DNA from: Echinarachnius parma
Taxonomy: Eukaryota > Echinodermata > Echinoidea > Clypeasteroida > Echinarachniidae
Reading direction: 5' to 3'
DNA: 64,000 nucleotides
Assembly: GCA_037951105.1 (NCBI GenBank)
Contig: JBAMJV010002045.1
Location: 44,533-108,532, forward strand
Position numbers and translations under genes: made by a program. A model generated the notes under the pieces. That model saw only the letters and a program-made list of their open reading frames with translations. It had not been told where the DNA came from and made no database searches. This document shows positions 2,717 to 63,078 of the stretch, piece after piece; position 1 is the first letter of the stretch; every line of letters begins with the position of its first letter.

Positions 2717-3204
2717 AGGGGTAGTACGGTTTTGGTAAGGCTGAGCTTTATTAACCAAAACCTGCACAATAACATTACAAACTACTACTTATTACTCCAC
2801 CATGCTCGAAAGGTATGGACAATTACAAACGACTAAGTAAAAAGCCCGTTATCATTCAAGAGGGCGCTCTCCAAAAAAAACATTGGTTTCAACCATTATT
2901 CATACAAAATTATGCATGTGATGTTTTGTTGAAATAATGATTAAATAGAGAGATCATCAACAACTATTTAAAAACATTTTTTTAATTTAAAAAAATCATC
3001 GAATAAATCTGGGGCCCAGATTTATTCCGATCGGATATATTTATTGATATTTCAGCCATTTCTGAACCGATTTTGATCAAATAAAGTTTATTTTGTCATT
3101 GAAATTGTATGCTCTTTTAAATTTTACACCCAGACTCAGTTATTCATTATCTCACAAAAAATAATTTCGTGCAGCGCCCACTATACCAAAACGGAACTAC
3201 CTCT
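2717..3204 (+). mobile_element. TTAA-flanked MITE, family A, copy 1
   Basis: The ends are AGGGGTAGT...GTTTTGGTA and its inverse TACCAAAAC...ACTACCTCT. TTAA flanks both sides (2713-2716 and 3205-3208), which is the piggyBac-type target duplication. A closely related copy lies at 8960-9481 and an inverted, partly eroded one at 62550-63078. A palindrome near the centre (3001-3027) has 13 paired bases per arm around GGGGCCC. There is no coding capacity. Confidence 0.9.
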
Positions 3205-3284
3205 TTAAAAACGATAAATTAGAACAAAGTTTAGGGTCAATCAATTGGCATATTTCCAAAAAGTGATGTTTAGATAAGGGAACA

Positions 3285-5374: not shown

Positions 5375-6344
<970 letters not shown>

Positions 6345-8955: not shown

Positions 8956-8959
8956 TTAA

Positions 8960-9481
8960 AGGGGTAGTTTAGTTTTGGTAAGACTGAACTTTAGTAGCCA
9001 AAACCTGCACAGTAACATAATAAACTAATAGTTATCACTCCACCATGCTCGAAAGGTATACAAAATTACAAACGACTAAGTAAAAATGCTGTTATCATTC
9101 AAAAAGAGCCATTAAAACACAAGAGGGCGCTTTTTAAAAAGGCATTGGTTTCAACCATTTTTCATACAAAATTATGCATGTAATCTTTTATTTGTATAAT
9201 GATTAAATAGAGAGATCATCAACAAACGCTTTTGAAAATTTTTGAAAAAGTGTGAGCATTTTTTTATTTTTTTCTAAAAATCAAATTATTTGGGCCCCAA
9301 ATAATTATAAGATCAGATATATTTATTGATATTTCAGCCGTTTCTGGGTCGATTTTGACTAAATAAAGTTTATTCTGCCATTAAAATTGCATGTTCTCTC
9401 AAATTCGACACTCAGTTTTTCATTACCTCACAAAAAAATTGTGATGTGCAGCGCCCTCTCTACCAAAACTAAACTACCCCT
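8960..9481 (+). mobile_element. TTAA-flanked MITE, family A, copy 2
   Basis: Same ends and order as 2717-3204. TTAA flanks at 8956-8959 and 9482-9485 are intact and the termini AGGGGTAGT / ACTACCCCT are perfectly inverted. It carries the same central palindrome (about 9283-9305) with arm sequence AATTATTTGGG, different from copy 1 yet perfectly paired. Confidence 0.92.
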
Positions 9482-9485
9482 TTAA

Positions 9486-37274: not shown

Positions 37275-37520
37275 TACATATGGCAGGGAAAAAATTAACA
37301 TTTTTATCTTGGGGGCTCCCTATCTAATTTTATGGAAGTTTTCGGGGCTCTTTTTTCGAATTTCAGGGGCTACATTTTAGCTCTAATGCGGTAAGTGATC
37401 ATCGGATCGGCATTCGATCACGATCCGATCATGCCGATTTCAGATCATGCAGAAAAATCGGGGGGGGGGGCATTTTTTGGCATTTCGGGGGCGAATTCGC
37501 CCCCGTGTATTTTTCCCCCT
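37275..37520. mobile_element. Possible MITE with internal GATCGG palindrome
   Basis: GGGGCTCCC- and GGGGGCGAATTCGCCCCC-type words lie around the self-complementary stretch CGGATCGGCATTCGATC...GATCCGATCATGCCGAT. A G run is at 37459-37469. Termini and target duplication are not clear. Confidence 0.45.
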
Positions 37521-62414: not shown

Positions 62415-62549
62415 ACATCGGCCCCTTGAGAAAAACAAATGTGCCCGTTCGCCCATGAAAGTAATGAAGTATTAGGCCTATATTTTATTCATTTCATTTC
62501 ATTTCATTTATTTAATTTTCATTTATTTATTTTCATTTCCAACATATTA

Positions 62550-63078
62550 TATTTTGTGTGAGATAATGAAAAACTGAGTGTCAAATTTGAAAGAGCATAC
62601 AATTTGAATGACAGAATAAACTTTATTTGATCAAAATCGGTTCAGAAATGGCTGAAATATCCATAAAAATACTCATTAATAATTGTGGGGCCCCACAATT
62701 ATTCCATAATTTTGAACCACCCGTATTTTTTTTTTTAATGCTTCCTCTTTTCAAAAATTTACAAAAGAGGTTGTTGATATCTCTCTACAATATTTAAAGA
62801 AAACATCACATGCACAATATTTTATTTTAAATGGTTGAAACCGCGATGAGTTTTTAGAGAGCGCCCTCTTGAGTGTTAACGGCTCTTTTTTGTTCTTCTT
62901 TAAAACAATAATACTAATAACAGGTTTTTTACTTAGTCATTTGTGATTTGTTATTCCTTTTGAGCATGGTGGAGTTATAACTATTAGTTTGTAATGTAAT
63001 GGTGCAGGTTCTAGTTACTAAAATTCAGTTTGACCAAAACTGTACTCGTTTTTACCAAAACTCAACGGACTCAACTAT
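62550..63078 (-). mobile_element. TTAA-type MITE, family A, copy 3 (inverted, ends eroded)
   Basis: The reverse complement of 2717-3204 and 8960-9481: GTGTGAGATAATGAAAAACT, TTTGATCAAAATCGGTTCAG, TGGCTGAAATATC and AGAGCGCCCTCTTGAG are in order. The left terminus is lost next to the TTTCA tract. The right one is disturbed around 63035-63078. The central palindrome (about 62680-62705) has perfect 13-base arms, AATAATTGTGGGG. Confidence 0.9.

Follow-up and report, generated by a model that had tools for sequence, protein, structure and literature searches.

Elements in the window and their ends

The window, a stretch of 64,000 nucleotides from the genome of Echinarachnius parma, contains three related copies of a short transposable element. 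The element, a non-autonomous TTAA MITE, has a GC-centred palindrome close to the middle. The features to which we refer throughout are given below in window coordinates; those of element copies 1 and 2 were read from the sequence.

2717..3204, plus strand: MITE copy 1 (main subfamily)
2713-2716 and 3205-3208: TTAA beside MITE copy 1
2995..3001, plus strand: left outer segment ATCATCG of copy 1
3002..3026: central palindrome of copy 1 (12-bp arms, one central G)
3031..3190, plus strand: conserved right flank, used as flank-only query
8960..9481, plus strand: MITE copy 2 (second variant)
8956-8959 and 9482-9485: TTAA beside MITE copy 2
9284..9306: central palindrome of copy 2 (11-bp arms, one central C)
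62542..63060, minus strand: homologous stretch, MITE copy 3 (third variant)
62678..62703: central palindrome of copy 3 (13-bp arms, spacer-free)

Copies 1 and 2 measure about 500 bp and end in inverted repeats some 25 bp long, which read AGGGG on the left side and either CCTCT or CCCCT on the right side; in copy 3 no terminal repeat was recognised by a pattern allowing up to 7 errors. The end search over 36 rows used a pattern that tolerated up to 7 errors and itself contained TTAA. By this search 20 of the 23 recognised left ends start with TTAAAGG and 24 of the 30 recognised right ends finish in TTTAA (counts by eye, with TTAA seen at occupied sites only). When the 20 TTAAAGG ends were examined for AGGRR, again by eye, 17 read AGGGG and one (L008) AGGGA; the two misfits are L023 and L030. 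In the literature the T2-MITEs, a family assigned to the Kolobok superfamily, are defined by TTAA together with AGGRR ends (PMC6004289), and CC[C/T]T is called a hallmark of piggyBac (PMC2872659). Because most copies with a recognised right end have CCCCT there, which matches CC[C/T]T, the ends are compatible with both Kolobok and piggyBac. From its TTAA sites and ends we provisionally call the family T2-MITE/Kolobok-like. It shares with the T2-MITE/Kolobok elements of Xenopus the TTAA target, the terminal AGGRR, and the short, non-autonomous format (PMC6004289). A difference lies in the central palindrome: the string "palindrom" is absent from the main text of PMC6004289, so that under this term none is reported there.

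The central palindrome

The original prediction described a near-perfect palindrome at the same internal position in three related copies, and this was borne out: all three inverted repeats are exact. A palindrome scan of the window (arms of 11, at most 1 mismatch, spacer of at most 3) returned 17 merged sites, the three MITE palindromes included, against 2-4 sites in five first-order Markov sequences. Such palindromes are thus above a simple Markov null, yet not rare in the window. Part of the outer segment ATCATCG pairs with CGAT to the right of the palindrome, with one bulged base. None of the 8 Rfam matches with E of at most 1 across the window places a known RNA family at the palindrome, its free energy as RNA is unremarkable against shuffled sequences (z of -1.97, -0.45, and -1.40), and RNAalifold, when given a mixed alignment of the variants, did not choose it. 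We think that the program passed over the palindrome owing to a register shift between the variants in the alignment.

Sampling of genomic copies

The genome (1.2 Gb, 14,790 contigs) was searched with the right flank of copy 1 only, so that copies were chosen independently of their arms. This query gave 3341 first-look candidates, of which the best 40 were scored, yielding 30 loci with copy 1 included; they are the closest relatives of copy 1 and no random sample of the family. After exclusions, the main-subfamily set comprises 27 copies, 24 of them distinct over the counted stretch. Among the copies found with the flank query, the palindrome is deleted in L005 and L032, and that of L018 carries a foreign insert. 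The second variant is represented by three copies (copy 2, L016, and L010, the latter two met in loci retrieved for other copies) and the third by copy 3 only; the palindrome of L016 is perfect and that of L010 has one unpaired change. Searches with a single model together with an Rfam scan of 20 loci added one weak, remote copy (L007:97-265) to those known, and further matches that were only partial or on the reverse strand. A tree of 31 copies, built with the palindrome left out, has 22 of its 28 inner branches unresolved and three long end branches; it implies a minimum of 9 changes of the central base, and is too weak for placing these flips.

The insert of L018 (ca. 1150-1490) is an element with short inverted ends, CAACCAA...TTGGTTG, that lies inside the right arm of the palindrome and has a similar CCCCAG motif at either side; by eye, its GGGGGCGAATCGCCC stretch resembles the palindrome at window 37485-37506. 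In L022 a tandem duplication (ca. 1275-1660) repeats at an interval of about 138 bp and takes in the palindrome. The aligned rows of L019 and L020, which come from different contigs, look identical, which suggests either duplication of the segment or a haplotype left uncollapsed.

Decay of the arms in landed copies

Over the 12 core pairs of the 27 main-subfamily copies (324 cells, gapped cells unscored), 23 changes are one-sided, two are double and non-complementary, and a single one, in L027, is paired. In a shuffle test on 15 pairs (12 core and 3 outer), in which the partners were shuffled 500 times, none of the measures set these copies apart from chance. Paired cells made up 91.6% of 356 against 91.1% in the shuffles, 76 of the 500 being equal or higher; cells with both sides changed numbered 2 against 1.6 expected, a value reached by 249 shuffles; the covariation score was 0.083 against 0.081, reached by 204; and further pair types came to 10 against 10.2. 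Nor is there a deficit of arm mismatches relative to the flank in this set, since 29 of 644 arm and GGG/CCC sites are off consensus (9/243, 2/81, 10/81, and 8/239 by part) against 132 of 3122 flank sites. The CCC side changed more than the GGG side, and the ATCATCG segment, with 26 of 189 sites off consensus, exceeds the divergence of the flank.

With arms that diverge like the flank and with no covariation beyond that of the shuffles, the landed copies neither keep nor repair the palindrome visibly; in this one subfamily of 27 copies they decay neutrally, and the symmetry is lost. Repair of the arms after landing is rejected for the main subfamily on account of the unpaired changes, the flank-like rate, and the shuffles, and the idea that single non-coding copies keep or repair a hairpin finds no support. 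L026, L027, and L028 have a left-arm change in common that is found on both sides in L027 only; the kinship of the three is not fixed by the tree, and no half-way form with one arm rewritten is demonstrated.

Immediately left of the palindrome (ca. 2975-2994, and at the same place in the other copies) lies a hypervariable A/T tract, with 40 of 161 sites off consensus over six counted columns against the 132 of 3122 in the right flank. L021 has a run of T where L022 has a run of A. Slippage or small inversions may account for this variability.

Differences between the variants

Variants 2 and 3 have arms that differ from those of the main subfamily and are likewise symmetric, as shown in three copies and one copy, respectively. 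With gaps placed by hand, including that for a lost pair in copy 2, the arms differ at pairs 4, 6, and 8 (counted from the outside in), and every difference is paired. Copies 1 and 3 are separated by two substituted pairs, copies 1 and 2 by two substituted pairs and one lost pair, and copies 2 and 3 by one substituted pair and one lost pair. By our own minimal count, 4 of 4 differences between the variants are paired, one being the lost pair. If pairing is as rare as among landed copies (2/26, a figure that includes pseudo-counts and omits the 2 double non-complementary cells), the probability of 4 of 4 is about 3.5e-5, and that of 2 of 2 about 0.006. The statement of the original prediction that both arms change together therefore stands between the three variants and fails among the 27 copies of the main subfamily; mostly unpaired mutations, which by its own terms would refute it, occur within that subfamily and not between variants. 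The evidence from the variants is thin, with one to three copies for variants 2 and 3, and a larger sample could overturn it.

Since 4 of 4 paired differences are improbable at the rate of landed copies, source lineages and landed copies seem to be under different processes: either symmetric rewriting occurs mainly in active lineages, or asymmetric sources fail to amplify. Copy 3 bears on the manner of change. It has two paired changes in its arms and an altered sequence immediately right of the palindrome; its flank has 7 of 116 sites that depart from the main consensus, close to three copies of the main subfamily itself (6/115, 5/116, and 4/116). The corresponding figure for the three second-variant copies is 12 to 14 of 116 sites. 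With arms and right neighbour altered and the flank near consensus, the change in copy 3 is confined to a small region, as would be expected of a single rewriting event rather than of several compensations that arose independently.

The central base

The single base at the centre of the palindrome is C in 16 of the 27 main-subfamily copies, G in 10, and T in one; from ATCATCG rightwards no other transversion in these copies is as frequent outside an A/T run. The mix of C and G fits the outcome expected from inversion of a one-base spacer, and such inversion of spacers is reported for inverted repeats of yeast (PMC8604942). The mix is explained equally well if GGGGCCCC, the form that copy 3 and L004 carry, lost one base. 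As a marker of subfamilies the central base was discarded: it showed no association at p<0.05 with 20 variable sites (lowest p 0.053), in a comparison of low power. This says little, because associations among the other sites are themselves scarce (p<0.05 in 6 of 190 pairs).

Origin of the symmetric variants

We consider template-switch rewriting the most likely explanation, selection on the hairpin in active elements the second, and exchange of the central module the third. For the first, that the arms were rewritten symmetrically in amplifying source lineages by template switching in the hairpin, we would put the chances at somewhat short of even. The arms of source elements would be rewritten between rounds of amplification; most probably a polymerase that switches template within the hairpin would copy one arm onto the other in a single event, which might sometimes invert the central base as well, and the symmetric sources would afterwards be amplified. 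Template switching in a hairpin is an already known mechanism, and paired changes that arise from it have been described for RNA genes (PMC8794818). The yeast inverted repeats resemble our case in their symmetric arm changes and in a centre that occurs in both orientations (PMC8604942). Those events were seen along a tree of yeast strains, whereas ours would belong to source lineages and are nearly lacking in landed copies. The near-absence of switching in landed copies, with one paired change against 23 one-sided and two double ones, counts against template switching.

The same silence of the landed copies is what one would expect if a hairpin, of DNA or of the transcript, were under selection in mobile elements only: sources with asymmetric arms would transpose less, substitutions in sources would be compensated, and copies once landed would be released. 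This we judge possible and less probable than rewriting. It accommodates symmetric variants beside neutral decay in landed copies, and conserved internal regions of MITEs have been suggested to aid transposition (PMC2872659). However, the RNA free energy is unremarkable against shuffles, and in copy 3 the neighbouring sequence changed along with the arms and the flank hardly at all, which resembles one local event more than a series of compensations. The stricter proposal that amplification depends on a symmetric central hairpin, such that the letters are free and symmetry is kept in moving elements only, appears unlikely to us. The coral CMITEs, TTAA elements linked to piggyBac-like elements, are comparable in that a TTAA MITE has a notable internal region (PMC2872659); there, different families keep the same sequence in this region, whereas here the letters differ and the symmetry persists.

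Alternatively, the centre could be a module that was swapped between lineages by recombination with another element or made anew by separate origins, in which case the arms would not correspond site by site and the compensatory change would be an artefact of alignment. The flanks do align cleanly with the centre out of register between variants; L005:181-230 holds a different short inverted repeat at the place of the palindrome, L004:2461-2510 has there what looks like a decayed one, and a foreign element sits within the arm of L018. The three window variants nevertheless have most arm letters and the centre of a G run followed by a C run in common, which makes homologous arms the simpler assumption, and we give module exchange a rather slim chance. 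Mere chance, or the choice of three decayed palindromes that happened to be symmetric, seems very improbable: variants 2 and 3 do rest on few copies and the window is rich in palindromes, but three perfect inverted repeats of 23-26 bp share one position, and the two additional copies of the second variant are perfect (L016) or altered by a single unpaired change (L010).

No MITE with a central palindrome or a compensatory hairpin was found in the titles and abstract openings of the literature searched. Covariation is commonly taken to prove that a structure has a function. A non-coding family of high copy number that is neutral after landing could be used to measure paired change that arises from mutation alone as against selection, and the 27 copies provide a first, small measurement: paired change is rare in landed DNA. 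Should amplification indeed depend on the hairpin, landed copies would be a ready-made neutral control for compensatory evolution.

Other features of the window

On the minus strand at 5384-5598 lies a piece of histone H4, the 46-residue C-terminal part with its own ATG and stop codon, whose best match is a PDB histone H4 (E 6.6e-25). It is followed by a match to the histone 3'-UTR stem-loop that scores 29.8 of 34 bits, slightly below the Rfam gathering score. Together they are probably a truncated copy of an H4 gene. Further on, 20 consecutive G (6000-6019) and 22 consecutive C (6158-6179) occur on the same strand, and could pair in a hairpin across some 140 intervening bases.
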